From Zobellia amurskyensis (GTDB lineage: Bacteria; Bacteroidota; Bacteroidia; Flavobacteriales; Flavobacteriaceae), in assembly GCF_009725985.1 (NCBI RefSeq), contig NZ_RCNR01000009.1, forward strand, positions 99,468 to 163,467: a stretch of 64,000 bases of DNA. The letters are read 5' to 3'. Under the pieces are notes generated by a model. It did no database searches and had not been told where the DNA came from. It worked only from the letters and a program-made list of their open reading frames with translations. The position numbers and the translations under genes were made by a program. This document shows positions 9,001 to 53,425 of this stretch, piece by piece. Numbering within the stretch: the stretch's first letter is position 1; each line of letters starts with the position of its first letter.

Positions 9001-9300
9001 ATGCAAATAATTTATGAATATCACGATGTAAGTGCGAGCGAACGTTTAGAGACTTTAGCTAAAGAAAAACTTGAAAAACTTAGTAAAAAATACGATTTCG
9101 TGCATAGAGCCGATGTGTTTTTTAAAACTGAAAACAGAAGTGACGAAGAGAATATGTTCTGCGACATCCGTTTGAGCATGCCTGGACCGCGCATTTTTGC
9201 ATCATCTAACTCTGACTCCTTTGAAGCAGCGTTAAGTGAGACCGTTCGCGACTTGGAACATCAACTTAGAAAAGTAAAAGAAAAGTTGTCGGCTCACTAG
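9001..9300 (+). CDS. hpf: Short ribosome hibernation-promoting factor (HPF/YfiA/RaiA)
   Basis: This 99-residue protein binds the 30S subunit decoding region and stabilises inactive ribosomes in stationary phase. The beta-alpha-beta-beta-beta-alpha fold is visible: an opening strand IIYEYHDV, a first helix SERLETLAKEKLEKLSKKY (12-30), three strands (ADVFFK, FCDIRLSM, RIFASS), and a final amphipathic helix (73-96). It lacks the C-terminal dimerisation domain of long HPFs, so it is the short type. A hairpin terminator overlaps the stop codon. A stress/stationary-phase role agrees with the neighbourhood (Dps, YciF and topoisomerase IB nearby). Confidence 0.9.
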   Translation: MQIIYEYHDVSASERLETLAKEKLEKLSKKYDFVHRADVFFKTENRSDEENMFCDIRLSMPGPRIFASSNSDSFEAALSETVRDLEHQLRKVKEKLSAH

Positions 9301-9313
9301 CCGTCAACTTTTT
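9281..9313 (+). terminator. Terminator hairpin overlapping the hpf stop codon
   Basis: AAAAGTTG-T-CGGCT on the left and AGCCG-T-CAACTTTT on the right pair with one T-T mismatch around a CACT loop and run into T5. The TAG stop (9298-9300) is inside the hairpin. A small ORF starts 25 bases later, so readthrough or a second promoter must serve it. Confidence 0.65.
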
Positions 9314-9337
9314 AATGTATCAACTTAAAAAACTTGT

Positions 9338-9499
9338 ATGAAACCGACATCAATTATTGGCATTGCTTCAGCTTTGGCCAACAGCAGAAAACTAAAACTT
9401 GCCCTTGTGGGTATGCAGTTTGCCTATCTGGGGTATAAACTCTTGCAGAACAACGAATCCAAAAAAGGCAAGAAGAAAAGAAAAAAACTAAAGCGATAA
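9338..9499 (+). CDS. Small basic protein, 53 aa
   Basis: An ATG-started 53-codon ORF. Residues 4-35 are mildly hydrophobic with IIGIASALANS and LALVGMQFAYLGYKLL segments, and the last 18 residues are almost all Lys/Arg (KKGKKKRKKLKR at the end). That pattern suits a membrane-associated or nucleic-acid-contacting small protein, and similar short ORFs next to hibernation and stress genes are often called hypothetical in flavobacteria. I recognise no family. It sits between hpf and the SLC13 gene on the same strand. Confidence 0.5.
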   Translation: MKPTSIIGIASALANSRKLKLALVGMQFAYLGYKLLQNNESKKGKKKRKKLKR

Positions 9500-9544
9500 C
9501 GAATAAGGCTATGTGCATCCTTGTACTGTGCCAGCGAAATAAAA

Positions 9545-11374
9545 ATGACTTGGGAAATAATTTTAATGTTTTGTGTATTACTGGTAACGGTGGTACTTTT
9601 TGTATTCGAAGTTTTCCCTGTTGACAAAATTGCTTTTTTGATTATCGTTTCACTCACCCTATTGGGGTTAGTGAAGCCAGAGGAGGCCATTAGTGGTTTT
9701 TCAAACAACGCCACTATTGCCGTTCTTGCTTTAATGATATTGGCTATTGCGTTAGAAGAAAATGGCGTTATCAATTGGTTGGCCTCGGGTATGGGGCGGA
9801 TCAAAGGATTGCCATTGTATGTAATGGCGCCCATTTTCATGTTCGTTACGGCAGGAATTTCAGCATTTATAAGTACTACGGCCGTAGTTATCGTGTTTAT
9901 AAAAATTGTAAATCAGCTTTCGGAGAAATACAACATTTCTCAAAGCAAACTACTATTGCCTATTTCCTTTGCCGGTATATTAGGAGGTTCCTGCACATTA
10001 ATGGGTACTTCAACCAATCTTATCGTTAATTCCGTAGCAACGGATCTGGGTGCGGAAAAATTAGGCTTCTTTGAATTTTCATTATTGGGGTTAGTCTTTT
10101 TGGGCATCTCAATTATTTATCTAACGGTTACCTTACGTTGGCTACCTTGGGGCAAAGGCAAGAATCTTGATGAAGATTACAATCTGAATAATTACGTAAC
10201 CAACGTTCATATTAATTCCGACTCCCAATTGGTGGGAAAAACGGTCCAAGAGAGTTTCCTTTTTGAAAACCCGGATGTATCACTTTTAAAGCTCACGCGA
10301 AACAATAGAATTCATAATTCACCCGGTAAGTATGTAACCTTTAAAGCTAATGACGAGCTTCTATTAATGTGCGACTTGGAAAACCTGACCCGCATTAACG
10401 AGTCCGAAAATTTGAGTCTAAACCAAGAAAATTACTTTGCTCCAAGACAGGATTCAGAGAACAATAAAGCAAGCGATACAAAGGAGGAAAGTGACCTTGA
10501 CACTCGCATTTTTGTAGAATTCCTTATGCTTCCCGGAGCACAATTTTTAGGAAAAACTTTAGGTAATCTCAGAAGCTTAATGATGCAGGACATTGTCCCC
10601 ATCGCCATTAAAAAAAGAAAAACGCTTACTAAATTAAACGATAGATTGGTACGCAGTAGTATGAACAAGCTTGTGCTTAAAGTGGGAGACCGTTTGCTCT
10701 TGGAAACCTCTAAAGAAAACCTTGAAACACTGAGTAAGATGGAGAATGTATTATTGCTTCAAGAATACGATAAAGTAAGCTCCAATTCTAGATACAAACG
10801 TTACTTCTCGCTGAGCGTTCTTTTGTTGGTCATAGGTTTAGCCGCTTCGGGCTTATTATCCATTATGGTTAGTGCCCTTACCGGAGTTTGCATTCTGTTA
10901 CTCACAAAAAACTTGGACCTTACCACGGTCTATAAAAAAGTAAACTGGCAAATTTTCTTTTTACTAGCAGGTATGATCCCCTTGGGAATTGCTATGCACA
11001 ATACTGGCGCCGATGTTTTTATTTCAGAAAAACTACTGGGTTTTCTTTTTGACCAACCGGGATACGTTGTCATTGGCACCCTGTTTTTCACCACCATGAT
11101 TTTGAGCGCGGTCATAAGCAATAATGCCACGGCAATTATTATGACGCCCATTGCTATTTCGGTAGCTCAAGGTATGCAGCTAGATTTCAAACCTTTTATT
11201 CTAGCCGTAATGTTCGCGGCCAATTTTAGCTTTTTCACTCCTGTAGGTTATCAAACCAACACTTTAATCTACAGTCTTGGCAACTATAAATTCAGTCACT
11301 TTTTAGGAATTGGAGGCCTATTGAGCCTCATTCTAGCCGTAGTAGCCACCTTTTTATTAACCAATATGTTATAA
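9545..11374 (+). CDS. SLC13/DASS-type permease with two RCK_C domains
   Basis: An inner-membrane anion symporter-like protein. Residues about 1-205 and 410-609 hold the paired membrane halves, with STTAVVIVFIKIV and GSCTLMGTSTNLIVNS in the first and AVISNNATAIIMTP in the second; the SNT-like motifs form the substrate site in the family. Between them are two TrkA-C/RCK_C domains (about 217-295 and 326-398), which bind ligands in the cytosol. Substrate could be dicarboxylate, sulfate or another anion. I chose the ATG at 9545 over a TTG eight codons upstream because the hydrophobic N-terminus then begins normally. An MscS gene follows after 11 bases. Confidence 0.85.
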   Translation: MTWEIILMFCVLLVTVVLFVFEVFPVDKIAFLIIVSLTLLGLVKPEEAISGFSNNATIAVLALMILAIALEENGVINWLASGMGRIKGLPLYVMAPIFMFVTAGISAFISTTAVVIVFIKIVNQLSEKYNISQSKLLLPISFAGILGGSCTLMGTSTNLIVNSVATDLGAEKLGFFEFSLLGLVFLGISIIYLTVTLRWLPWGKGKNLDEDYNLNNYVTNVHINSDSQLVGKTVQESFLFENPDVSLLKLTRNNRIHNSPGKYVTFKANDELLLMCDLENLTRINESENLSLNQENYFAPRQDSENNKASDTKEESDLDTRIFVEFLMLPGAQFLGKTLGNLRSLMMQDIVPIAIKKRKTLTKLNDRLVRSSMNKLVLKVGDRLLLETSKENLETLSKMENVLLLQEYDKVSSNSRYKRYFSLSVLLLVIGLAASGLLSIMVSALTGVCILLLTKNLDLTTVYKKVNWQIFFLLAGMIPLGIAMHNTGADVFISEKLLGFLFDQPGYVVIGTLFFTTMILSAVISNNATAIIMTPIAISVAQGMQLDFKPFILAVMFAANFSFFTPVGYQTNTLIYSLGNYKFSHFLGIGGLLSLILAVVATFLLTNML

Positions 11375-18347: not shown

Positions 18348-18794
18348 ATGAGCACCAAACTATTAAATATAGCCTTGGCAGATGATGATGAAGATGACAG
18401 AATGCTCTTCAGTGAAGCCATAGAAGATATCTCCATACGAACCAAGTTATCTCTTTTTAACCACGGTCAAGAGTTAATGGATTATCTTAATTTACCCAAC
18501 GTAATATTGCCCAATCTTATTTTCTTAGATTTAAATATGCCCATTAAAAATGGTATGCAATGTCTTAAGGAAATACGTCAAAATCCGGACTTAAAAGACC
18601 TTTGCATAGCCATATATTCTACCTCTTCTTCCGAACGTGATATAGAGGAGACTTTCTTGAATGGAGCAAACATTTATCTTAATAAGCCCAATAACTTTGG
18701 TAAATTGCAAGATTCTGTAGAAAGAATATTGCAATTGAACTGGCAATACCATACGTCTAATCTTAACAAAGACACCTTTCTATTTCGCATATAG
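18348..18794 (+). CDS. Single-domain response regulator (Rcp1-like)
   Basis: A stand-alone CheY-like receiver of 148 residues with no output domain. ADDDEDD (11-17) supplies the acidic pocket, Asp61 in FLDLNMP (59-65) is the phosphorylation site, the Ser/Thr switch is in YSTSSS (90-95), and Lys113 in LNKPNNF is the conserved lysine. The extended loop around FNHGQELMDYLN is usual in Rcp1-type regulators that partner hybrid or phytochrome-like kinases. It is probably the direct phosphoacceptor of the kinase encoded 5 bases downstream. Confidence 0.9.
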   Translation: MSTKLLNIALADDDEDDRMLFSEAIEDISIRTKLSLFNHGQELMDYLNLPNVILPNLIFLDLNMPIKNGMQCLKEIRQNPDLKDLCIAIYSTSSSERDIEETFLNGANIYLNKPNNFGKLQDSVERILQLNWQYHTSNLNKDTFLFRI

Positions 18795-38328: not shown

Positions 38329-38460
38329 ATGAAAAACATTCTAAAAGCCATTTTGGCCGGTTGGGGAGCCAAAAAAATTGGAGGCGGCAAATGCGGGTGC
38401 ATTGGTAGCGTCGTAGTATTTATAATTCTATACTGGATATTGGGATACGTAATCAACTAG
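38329..38460 (+). CDS. Small membrane protein with CGC motif, 43 aa
   Basis: A 43-codon ORF beginning 9 bases after the helical-protein gene. Residues 13-24 are glycine- and lysine-rich with a Cys-Gly-Cys motif (KKIGGGKCGCIG), and 25-41 form a hydrophobic helix (SVVVFIILYWILGYVIN). It would be a tail-anchored protein. The paired cysteines next to the membrane are unusual and could bind metal or form a disulfide. I recognise no family. Confidence 0.5.
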   Translation: MKNILKAILAGWGAKKIGGGKCGCIGSVVVFIILYWILGYVIN

Positions 38461-38528
38461 CATTTAGCAATTGCGTCAATTTCGTTTTTTTTTGAATCGA
38501 TCTTGATGAAAGAACTATTGCATATTTG

Positions 38529-38617
38529 TAACTCATAAGTAGGTTGAATAACTATTTCAATACTGAAATAGGTATTATATAACTCGGAAAGGGAGCGTTG
38601 GGGAACGCTCCCTTTTT
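38529..38617 (+). ncRNA. Putative small RNA, copy 1
   Basis: A -7-like box CATATTTG (38521-38528) precedes a sequence that folds into an 8-bp hairpin, CTATTTCA/TGAAATAG with loop ATAC, then a short linker and a 9-bp GC-rich terminator hairpin with T5. There is no ORF within or after it. A TTTG lies 26 bases upstream of the box, a long spacer for a -33 element. The 5' end is uncertain by several bases. It starts 60 bases after the stop of the CGC membrane protein. It could be an sRNA or a regulated leader remnant; no known family is recognised. Confidence 0.55.
38588..38617 (+). terminator. Terminator of repeat copy 1
   Basis: GGGAGCGTT (38591-38599) pairs perfectly with AACGCTCCC (38604-38612) around GGGG, preceded by AAA and followed by T5. 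The opposite strand has only three T after the hairpin, so transcription is read left to right. Confidence 0.85.
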
Positions 38618-38730
38618 ATGTGGCGGCAACTCTAACTTTCAGTAAAAAAAGACCGTTCATGTAAAATATCGATTGTGTCAAAATTTCGATTTTTAGCATC
38701 AAACACCTAAAGGAAACCACTGCATCTTTG

Positions 38731-38820
38731 TAACTCATAAGTAGGTTGAATAACTATTTCAGTATTGAAATGGATATGACATAACTCGGAAAGGGAGCGT
38801 TGGGGAACGCTCCTTTTTTT
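38731..38820 (+). ncRNA. Putative small RNA, copy 2
   Basis: Preceded by CATCTTTG (38723-38730). The internal hairpin is kept although bases changed: CTATTTCA pairs with TGAAATGG through a G-U in place of A-U, and the loop is GTAT instead of ATAC. The terminator is also kept. No ORF follows before the exopolysaccharide promoter at 39161. No clear -33 element was found. Retained pairing with drifting loop is what a functional structured RNA would show, although two copies give little statistical weight. Confidence 0.55.
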
Positions 38821-39409: not shown

Positions 39410-40765
39410 ATGAAAAGCTTTAAAAATTCAGACTGGGTTATTCCAATTTCAATATTGGTACACTTGTGTATTATTAACGGTTTTCTCTATTTTCTAACAC
39501 CAGAGACTTACACCAACGGTTATTATATTTTCCACTACAACTTCTCGTGGTTGCTCATCACTTATGGCCTTAGTTATTATACTAGAAAACGTAAAGAACG
39601 TTTCTTTACCAATATTCATAAAGTTGTTCAACTTTACTTAATTTATGGTCTTGCCTATTTTGCACTGTTTGGAATAACCGGCAGAATTTACGATTCCATA
39701 GAACAACAACTGTTCATCTACCTTAGTATCTGTACCGCACTTACGGCCTACCGTGTGGTTTTCTTTTGGTTACGTAGAAAATACCGTATATGGGGTGGTA
39801 ACTCCGTAAAAGTTGTTGTACTCGGTAGGGACAAAAACTTAAAGAAAATTAGGAAGGTATTTGACGAACCCGAACTGGGGTATCGTTATATGGGTTATTT
39901 TGATGATAAAAAATCGAAAAGTCCCACATTTCTTGGTCCGGTGGTAGATTGTTTTCTTTATATTCTAGAGAATAACATAGATGAGATTTACTGTGTGGCC
40001 TCTAAGTTCAATAATAAAGAACTTCGAAATCTGATAGACTTTGCGGATAACAACCTTATTCGCATAAAGATCATACCGGACAACAAAGAAATTTACTCCA
40101 GAGGTATGTTCATAGAACTTTATGAAAACGTACCTGTGCTCAACCTAAGAAGGGTTCCTTTAGACACACTATTTGGACGTGTTATAAAACGTACGTTTGA
40201 CCTCATTTTTTCTTCTTTAGTCATCTTGACCATTTTGTCTTGGCTCGTTCCTATAATGTTCATATTAATTAAATTGGAGTCTCCTGGAAAACTTTATTTC
40301 AAACAAAAAAGACATGGCCTAAAACGGCAAACCTTTTGGTGCTACAAATTCAGGTCTATGCGCCCCTCTAAAGATGCCGATTCTAAAATGGCTACCAAAG
40401 GAGATATGCGTGTCACCCGCGTTGGTAGATTTATACGCAAAACCAGTATAGATGAGCTGCCGCAGTTCTTGAATGTATTTTTAGGCGAGATGAGCGTGGT
40501 AGGTCCAAGACCCCATATGGAATTACACACATGGGATTATGAGGTATCTGTGGATAAATATTTGGTGCGCCACTTTGTTAAACCAGGAATAACCGGACTA
40601 GCACAAATTAAAGGCTATAGAGGCGAAATTGGTGAAAAGAAAGACATTCTTAACCGAACCAAATTGGATATTTTCTATGTAGAAAAATGGTCCTTGTGGT
40701 TAGATATTAAAATTATAGCACAAACAGTTATTAATGCCGTACGCGGAGAGGAAAAAGCATATTAG
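39410..40765 (+). CDS. Undecaprenyl-phosphate sugar-1-phosphate transferase (WcaJ-like)
   Basis: This polyprenyl phosphosugar transferase starts the repeat unit by moving a sugar-1-phosphate onto undecaprenyl phosphate. Four N-terminal membrane helices (about 11-120) are followed by a CoA-binding-like Rossmann domain (about 130-240). A re-entrant membrane helix (about 262-287) then leads into the conserved catalytic domain: [14 protein letters not shown] (about 317-330), [20 protein letters not shown] (about 344-363), VVGPRPH (to about 370) and [15 protein letters not shown]. At 451 residues it matches WcaJ/WbaP-type enzymes. The sugar is probably glucose or a related hexose. It is the first gene after the operon promoter. 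Confidence 0.92.
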
Positions 40766-52162: not shown

Positions 52163-53425
52163 ATGAAAGAAAAACAGGTTAAGCGTATTCTCTTTATAGG
52201 TTATAATTTTTCTCCTGAATTAACTGGAATAGGAAAGTATTCGGGAGAAATGATGCATTGGTTAGCCCAACAAGGGCATCACTGCACTGTACTTACTGCT
52301 TATCCGTATTATCCTTATTGGAAAATACAGGAGCCCTACCGAAAAAATAGGTTCTGGTATAGAAGTGAGGTTGAACACTTTTCCTCAGGAGGAAAGCTTA
52401 CGGTGTTACGATGTCCAATGTACGTGCCTGAGCAACCAAGCGGTATTAAACGTATGCTATTAGATACGTCATTTTCTTTTACTTCATTATGTAGAATGTT
52501 ACCCTTGTTATTTCAAAAAAAACACGATTGGGTCATATCCATCGCTCCTTCTTTTCAGTTCGGAATACTGGGGGTATTATACAAAAAATTAAGAGGCGGC
52601 AAACATTTGCACCATATTCAAGATTTACAGATTGAGGCCGCCCAAGATTTAGGCCTTATTAAATCCAAAACTTTATTAAAGCTTTTATATGGCACCGAGC
52701 GGTTTATCTTTAAGCATACGGACGTTGTGAGCAGTATTTCTGATGGTATGATATCACGTATAGAGAAAAAAGCGCTAAAACCATTGCTATTCTTTCCAAA
52801 CTGGACCGAAACAAACAGTTTCTATCCTATTCTTGAAGACCATGGCGCATTGAAAGAAAAATTCGGGTATGCCCCTACCGATTGGGTCGTTCTTTATTCA
52901 GGAGCCATTGGAGAAAAACAAGGCCTAGAGTCAATTTTGCATACCGCAAAAACACTACACTCACACGAACATCTAAAATTTGCGATTTGTGGTACGGGGC
53001 CTTACAAAGAAACTCTAAAAGACATGGCTACTAATATGGAACTTAAAAATGTACGTTTTCTTCCATTGCAGCCCAAAGCAGATTTTAATGCTTTTTTAAA
53101 TATGGCCGATCTACATCTAGTCATTCAAAAAGAGAAAGCTAGTGACTTGGTTATGCCATCAAAATTGACAACCATTCTAGCGGTAGGGGGACTGGCCTTA
53201 ATTACGGCCAACGAACAGTCTAGTTTACATAAAGTAGTACGGAAATACGAGATGGGTCTTTTGGTGGCTGCTGAGAATCAACAAGCTTTAAACGACGGTA
53301 TTTTAAATGCTTTTCAAAGTAAGGAAAAGGTCTTGATAAAAAAGGCGGCACGAACTTATGCCGAAGAATATTTAGCAATTGACACCATCATGAATGCTTT
53401 TGAAAAAGAACTGAATATTGAATAA
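52163..53425 (+). CDS. WcaI-type glycosyltransferase
   Basis: A 420-residue GT4 enzyme of the WcaI (colanic acid) type. The N-terminus YNFSPELTGIGKYSGEM (about 14-30) and TAYPYYPYWKI (about 48-58) are distinctive. The donor domain has LYSGAIGEKQGLESI and LVIQKEKASDLVMPSKLTTI (about 316-335), where the VMPSKL block is typical of WcaI rather than classical GT4. It probably adds fucose or a similar sugar in the repeat unit. It ends the first half of the operon; a 185-base gap follows. Confidence 0.87.
   Translation: MKEKQVKRILFIGYNFSPELTGIGKYSGEMMHWLAQQGHHCTVLTAYPYYPYWKIQEPYRKNRFWYRSEVEHFSSGGKLTVLRCPMYVPEQPSGIKRMLLDTSFSFTSLCRMLPLLFQKKHDWVISIAPSFQFGILGVLYKKLRGGKHLHHIQDLQIEAAQDLGLIKSKTLLKLLYGTERFIFKHTDVVSSISDGMISRIEKKALKPLLFFPNWTETNSFYPILEDHGALKEKFGYAPTDWVVLYSGAIGEKQGLESILHTAKTLHSHEHLKFAICGTGPYKETLKDMATNMELKNVRFLPLQPKADFNAFLNMADLHLVIQKEKASDLVMPSKLTTILAVGGLALITANEQSSLHKVVRKYEMGLLVAAENQQALNDGILNAFQSKEKVLIKKAARTYAEEYLAIDTIMNAFEKELNIE

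Follow-up and report, generated by a model that had tools for sequence, protein, structure and literature searches.

What is encoded by a short tandem repeat that lies beside an exopolysaccharide locus of Zobellia amurskyensis, by taxonomy a member of the Flavobacteriaceae? We analysed a 64,000-nucleotide stretch of this genome (hereafter the window), in which an original prediction, made from the letters alone, had recognized two similar units and proposed that they are copies of a gene for a short structured RNA. Comparison with other genomes leads us to consider it probable that the units are genes for small RNAs (sRNAs) of about 85 nt, which are predicted to repress translation through pairing of the sequence CAUAAGUAGGUU with start regions that carry AACCUACUUAUG.

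Layout and conservation of the tandem units

The direct repeat covers 105 nt (38513-38617 and 38715-38819) with 90% identity and a start-to-start distance of 202 nt, confirming the pair of units and the spacing claimed for it. Each unit presents, in order, a TTTG box, a stretch of 35 bases that is identical in the two copies (starting at 38525 in unit A and at 38727 in unit B), a hairpin, and a terminator with a 12-bp stem and a GGGG loop; the boxes, the common 35 bases, the 8-bp first hairpins and the terminators were all found where they had been predicted (Table 1). TAnnTTTG is the -7 promoter box of Bacteroidota. At the level of sequence, each unit has the features that are generally looked for in an sRNA gene, namely its own predicted promoter box, hairpins and an intrinsic terminator, and no ORF.

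The surroundings needed some correction. Sequences outside the units had been described as unlike each other, but a related element (CAATTGCGTCAATT for unit A and CGATTGTGTCAAAA for unit B) occurs equally far upstream of both cores. The statement that no ORF follows the units does not hold, as a sugar transferase gene lies downstream on the same strand at 39410. An ORF of 43 codons (38329-38460), whose product would be a small hydrophobic peptide, stops 7 bp short of the element that precedes unit A.

Table 1 Features of the two units, in coordinates of the window.
Feature	Position	Strand	Basis
Upstream element of unit A, CAATTGCGTCAATT	38468..38481	+	Unsupervised motif, -65 to -68 from core
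Predicted -7 box of unit A, CATATTTG	38521..38528	+	Sequence; TTTG invariant in 13/13 Zobellia units
Unit A, predicted sRNA of ~85 nt (5' end approximate)	38529..38618	+	Repeat, folding, conservation, covariation
Core of unit A, CATAAGTAGGTT, predicted seed	38534..38545	+	Invariant in 13/13 units; common to classes II and III; complement on start codons
First hairpin of unit A	38552..38571	+	Folding; 4/7 counted pairs changed on both sides within genus
Terminator hairpin of unit A, GGGG loop 38600-38603, T tract	38588..38618	+	2 pairs changed on both sides
Upstream element of unit B, CGATTGTGTCAAAA	38670..38683	+	Same unsupervised motif search
Predicted -7 box of unit B, CATCTTTG	38723..38730	+	Sequence
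Unit B, predicted second sRNA copy	38731..38820	+	Repeat, folding, conservation
Core of unit B, CATAAGTAGGTT	38736..38747	+	Invariant in alignment of units
First hairpin of unit B	38754..38773	+	Folding
Terminator hairpin of unit B, GGGG loop 38802-38805	38790..38820	+	Folding

Units A and B fold better than 200/200 shuffled sequences (z -6.17 and -4.76, respectively). Besides the two units, a search of the genome itself at E<=0.001 returned only a short, inverted fragment of unit B. The unit occupies the same locus in all nine Zobellia genomes searched, with two copies in four genomes and one copy in five, and is accordingly not peculiar to a single strain. The segment TTTGTAACTCATAAGTAGGTTG is identical across the 13 Zobellia units. 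The two hairpins are also conserved, because six of their base pairs are changed on both sides, against a mean of 2.0 in shuffled alignments (0/500 as high) and one or two when the structure is slid along the alignment. This covariation bears out the earlier remark that hairpin pairing is kept despite base change, and, together with the invariant core, it matches the combination of conserved structure and unpaired seed that is generally looked for in sRNAs. A weak 5′ helix that RNAalifold draws over the core proves nothing, since none of its positions vary across the units.

Searches of Rfam (release 15) found no family at the gathering threshold in the window or in nine loci, and the matches obtained at E<=1 for seven loci were all far below that threshold. 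This agrees with the original impression that the unit matches no known RNA family. Duplication and short size would also fit functionless relics of some small element, mobile or repetitive, but that reading, to which we give very little credence, does not sit well with retention of the locus in the nine Zobellia genomes compared, with the fixed upstream element or with the compensatory changes. Moreover, 50,697 phage and 72,556 plasmid records yielded weak partial matches only, so that the origin from a mobile element against which the prediction had cautioned finds little encouragement.

A family of three predicted RNA classes

When the unit was searched across Flavobacteriaceae genomes, homologues were recovered in other genera; they join folding and compensatory change in supporting the view that the window holds a short structured RNA gene in duplicate. 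A model of what we call class I (model R1) matched 28 of 397 genomes of the family, four of them Zobellia (one genus in our labelling, g127, we take to be Flavobacterium). Among the 24 loci in other genera, as read by us, 15 carry the core, two are doubtful (L047 and L050) and seven have the terminator only (L051-L057); a second model, R2, left out these last nine. The two doubtful loci are diverged, tandem RNA-like units from one other genus, with a similar terminator and without a clear core. Tandem copies of class I recur in other genera, with three in L038, three in L041 and two in L039.

The units of the window belong to a wider family, a point that the original prediction had missed. All its members have CAUAAGUAGGUU and a G-run in common, and two further classes were found by means of the word CATAAGTAGGTT. 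The G-run is GGGG in the terminator loop of class I and GAUUUGGG in class II. Class II is defined by the block CCATAGCATAAGTAGGTTAAGTT[CT]ATGGTAAGATTTGGG followed by a terminator, with a second element GATTTGGG; the block has one variable column among 28 sequences, which were chosen by part of the same block, and slight differences occur in other genera. Each Zobellia genome has four to six copies of class II in tandem, and in 5/5 loci compared the array sits between purF-like and superoxide dismutase genes. In the Z. amurskyensis genome itself, a contig (C49 of G000) terminates at a class II array (L094) with four copies counted, a number that may be too low because the contig ends there. Class III is present as one copy per Zobellia genome, and lies 60-65 bp downstream of one and the same gene, presumably for an M3-peptidase-like protein, both in Zobellia and in genome G087. 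Class II matches 41 of 296 Flavobacteriales genomes (40 within Flavobacteriaceae and one, weakly, outside), whereas classes I and III match five, all of which also have class II.

The classes differ in their promoter regions. Of 27 class I and III units, 26 have the motif CRATTGNGTYAAWW at a position of -65 to -68 relative to the core, as revealed by an unsupervised search; several of these score low. The log-likelihood of this motif is 110.6, against 41.9-48.2 in five shuffled sets (60 restarts were used for the real set and 20 for the null sets). Class II promoters have a different motif, RTGCATTTCAWCGA, with a second and often weaker copy 20 bp on in 28/32. Indeed, the self-identity of class II upstream regions peaks at 20 bp (mean 6.06 against a shuffle maximum of 5.34), although these regions are related by descent and the counts are not independent. 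Repeat spacing of this kind is typical of LytTR regulators, and suggests, as a guess, a regulator of that type for class II. We set aside three other candidates: a second class I element near -45, which gave a weaker signal (log-likelihood 55.5, compared with 29.3-34.1) and varies in position; a repeat spacing in class I, whose best value, 5.48 at 21 bp, barely exceeds the 5.44 reached by shuffles and is too weak; and use of the class II box by class I, since that box lies upstream of only 2/27 class I units.

Gene neighbourhoods were compared with regard to capsule or surface regulation, which had been guessed from the position of the units. All nine Zobellia loci have an exopolysaccharide sugar transferase downstream of class I and short-chain dehydrogenases upstream, with a gene for a 158-aa protein also upstream in 8/9. 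The exopolysaccharide neighbour was not found beside class I in the loci compared from other genera, where Pfam identified DUF892 (L206), BLUF (L213) and LytTR-regulator (L209) genes. Other neighbours there we take to be histidine kinase, UspA, MgtC and cardiolipin-synthase genes. Genes for DUF2383, AraC, response-regulator, PAS-kinase, AraC, DUF892, ferritin-like and BLUF proteins also lie at 15-26 kb of the window. As judged from these annotations, association of class I with genes of stress type recurs and association with capsule genes does not. Furthermore, the best class I duplex with the start of an apparent glycosyltransferase gene among 51 window genes (-11.2 kcal/mol, at 52163) is unremarkable. 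With a neighbour that is constant in Zobellia only and no notable pairing, we abandoned capsule regulation. Separately, a class I array in L209 is followed, at a distance of about 3 kb, by a LytTR response-regulator gene (9197-9952), and L210 and L211 have similar genes.

Start-codon sites complementary to the core

The clearest putative target encodes a protein of 516 aa, a candidate for secretion by its signal-like N-terminus, that gave no Pfam match. The word AACCTACTTATG lies exactly on its start codon in 9/9 Zobellia genomes. A homologue of the protein is present in 76/299 genomes of the family, and among the best 27 orthologues outside Zobellia, 15 (from 12 of 23 genera) have CCTACTTATG on the start codon with differing surrounding bases. 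The other 12 lack the start-codon site, two of them having a shifted AACCTACT. Complementary mRNA sites kept by selection, a further property expected of sRNAs, are represented by this gene (9/9 and 15/27). The RNA family was found in 11/15 genomes with the orthologue site and in 7/12 without it, a tally for which RNA detection is incomplete, and which reveals no clear co-occurrence of RNA and site. In a comparison with 657 start regions, to which this target does not belong, its start is the best partner of class II (-22.8 kcal/mol) and the second best of class I (-17.7 kcal/mol). Because the single best shuffled RNAs reach -23.5 kcal/mol (class II) and -17.5 kcal/mol (class I), duplex energy alone is no proof of a target.

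Although all classes have an identical core, class I differs in its second element and promoter box, as might be expected if it acted locally or on one private target, such as exopolysaccharide or stress-island genes, and if common descent alone explained its sharing of the core with the other two classes. A response-regulator gene in the window (18348-18794) could be such a target, as its start pairs with class I at -16.5 kcal/mol in this genome. However, the orthologous starts in eight other Zobellia genomes pair more weakly (-9.0 to -13.3 kcal/mol), for which reason this gene was rejected as a conserved class I target; one other start pairs more strongly than it does (-18.4 kcal/mol), and the best conserved complement of the core lies elsewhere in the genome, on the gene for the 516-aa protein. 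We regard a purely local or private role as unlikely, and favour action of class I on the target set of the whole family.

Complements of the seed are not enriched in general at the starts of 657 genes from G003 (which we take to be Z. galactanivorans) and the window, except for words holding ATG, which exceed permuted words there as any ATG-containing words would. For example, CCTACTT occurs in 0/657 start regions. General seed enrichment at Zobellia starts was rejected on this basis. Across 199 genomes of the family, AACCTACTTATGA has 98 sites and the reversed pattern 46. In a subset of 78 genomes, 43 sites of AACCTACTTATGA compare with 25 of its reverse, and a permuted word has 8 sites against 16 of that word's reverse. 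Given the ratios of 46 to 98 for the reversed pattern and 8 to 16 for the permuted word and its reverse, the excess in sheer site number is, by one control, no more than about two-fold.

We fetched 82 of the 98 sites; the other 16 are seven copies of the family RNA, four starts of the secreted-protein gene and five others, including one (G000:C6) that is not a start. A site was called start-like if it opens a reading frame of 60 codons or more that is preceded, within 30 codons, by an in-frame stop. By this rule, 33/82 AACCTACTTATGA sites are start-like, against 11/90 CTTATGA sites in G003 (Fisher p 4.2e-5) and 1/8 permuted-word sites, although many target sites come from related genes and the counts are not independent. 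Under a crude hydropathy rule, the products of 26 of the 33 start-like sites are export-like, compared with 265/657 genes (p 1.6e-5) and 39/136 ORFs from other genera. Pfam matches for ten site genes include CreD, TonB-C, M57 peptidase, T9SS-tail and DUF5686 proteins.

Upstream of the sites there are further signals. The most frequent 8-mer in the preceding 45 bases is CCCAAATC, the exact complement of the class II second element; it is found at 8/82 sites against 0.02 expected, and the commonest 8-mer in any of 100 shuffled upstream sets occurs six times. A TAnnTTTG box stands just before 11/82 sites, with 2.1 expected. The class II box, as learnt from class II promoters alone, scores >=13 upstream of 17/82 sites, but upstream of only 2/241 starts in loci of other genera (Fisher p 2.1e-9) and 5/583 in G003. 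With the box upstream of these sites, one regulator site seems to be common to the genes for the RNAs and those for the targets.

Both the proximity of TAnnTTTG boxes and the regulator box common to class II and targets would also arise if the repeated word were a DNA element, part of a promoter or regulator site, and not an RNA seed. We think this improbable: the RNA genes have CATAAGTAGGTT on the transcribed strand and the other genes have its complement on the start codon, neither of which a DNA element needs, nor would it need the covarying terminator in which class I units end. The core might instead serve mainly to land an RNA-binding protein of the RRM type, like RbpB of Bacteroides, so that the RNAs titrate or are carried by the protein and start-codon complementarity is secondary. 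The near-invariant class II block is longer than a seed needs (for sequences picked by part of that block), and a conserved stretch of the Bacteroides FopS RNAs is reported to be bound by RbpB (PMC11697453). A protein site alone, in contrast, predicts none of the features of the start-codon sites, which are exact complements with the AUG paired and have the second complement CCCAAATC upstream, and we judge the protein-landing account to be unlikely. The preferred reading remains that of a seed that pairs with start regions.

Several individual sites are of interest in their own right. At five loci (L274, L283, L315, L331 and L332), AACCTACTTATGA directly follows a TTTG box, and is placed by this near the mRNA 5′ end, before what seems to be one family of membrane proteins; a name first given to that family was dropped, as L315 has no Pfam match. 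Two LytTR response-regulator genes identified by Pfam start at AACCTACTTATGA (L280 and L296), and could close a feedback loop. In six genera (L257, L278, L287, L297, L301 and L311), a similar 22-codon ORF, for example MKNIKRIVILVSLVVMVSKIFF, starts at AACCTACTTATG and possibly encodes a small membrane peptide. Finally, loci in three genera (L265, L277 and L326) combine a TTTG box, AACCTACTTATGATG, a CCCC hairpin loop and a terminator loop with CCCAAATC. These are candidates for a sponge RNA with complements of both class II elements, although the sponge duplex energy (-28.8 kcal/mol) is no proof because one of 200 shuffles was lower (-30.1 kcal/mol).

Proposed mechanism and relation to known systems

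We propose that the units are transcribed as free-standing RNAs of about 85 nt, in which the core CATAAGTAGGTT would act as a seed and a second contact would be made by the G-run. Pairing over the AUG would block the ribosome and not activate translation, and the several near-identical copies would act additively. Less certainly, one regulator, perhaps of the LytTR type, might switch class II and part of the targets at the 20-bp repeats, while another acts on class I at its own fixed upstream element. Because its regulator would be separate from that of class II, class I might add a stress-type input to the shared target set. On the simplest account, the proteins repressed are for the most part exported or belong to the envelope, and class I supplies one more signal, which may be linked to stress. 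We infer from the identical 12-nt core of class I that it shares these mRNA targets; the second contact and the shared promoter box bear on class II, not on class I.

A broader model, which we put forward tentatively, is a network throughout Flavobacteriaceae in which three unlike sRNA classes, several in tandem arrays, would use one start-codon key (CAUAAGUAGGUU and the G-run) to read AACCUACUUAUG, with the AUG inside the seed, on many envelope-protein mRNAs. Arrays and targets would stand under the same repeat-binding regulator, the classes would bring different signals, and a dedicated sponge RNA, carrying the two complements AACCUACUUAUG and CCCAAAUC, would be present in some genera. To our knowledge, few sRNA families of Bacteroidota have been described outside Bacteroides. 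Sequence data from several genera are enough to recognize the seed, the target word, the second contact and the promoter box, and the whole network is therefore testable with one deletion and one reporter. Ribosomes of these bacteria hardly use Shine-Dalgarno pairing, and a seed spanning the start codon would be relevant to the control of such ribosomes. A literature search found no report in which a flavobacterial RNA is linked with a common target word, and the letters of the core occurred in none of the papers searched.

The family resembles, by description, the FopS/GibS RNAs of Bacteroides, which are reported as multicopy sibling RNAs that have a promoter of the sigma-ABfr type and pair, through a common 5′ stretch, in the vicinity of start codons, largely on mRNAs for outer-membrane proteins (PMC11697453). 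In that source, however, the members are about 65-70 nt long and are described from Bacteroidaceae, whereas class I RNAs here would be about 85 nt and the class I and II matches in our Flavobacteriales sample lie in Flavobacteriaceae, with one weak exception. The streptococcal csRNAs, five similar RNAs under the response regulator CiaR that act additively on a target mRNA (PMC4507080), resemble what is proposed here, where several near-identical RNAs would likewise obey one response regulator and act additively. We name them as an analogue only, since they come from another phylum, the family here appears to have many targets with a common start-codon word, and the class II promoter repeats, 20 bp apart, are other than the direct repeats of CiaR.

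The Rfp RNAs are likewise independent flavobacterial RNAs. Rfp18 of Flavobacterium psychrophilum is described as needed for normal levels of two metalloprotease mRNAs (PMC9723704). Compared by description, it differs in that its predicted pairing region, reported for proteases, is the third stem-loop. Class II members may be among the Rfp RNAs of F. psychrophilum, and published lists of flavobacterial RNAs may hold members that have gone unrecognized as a family.
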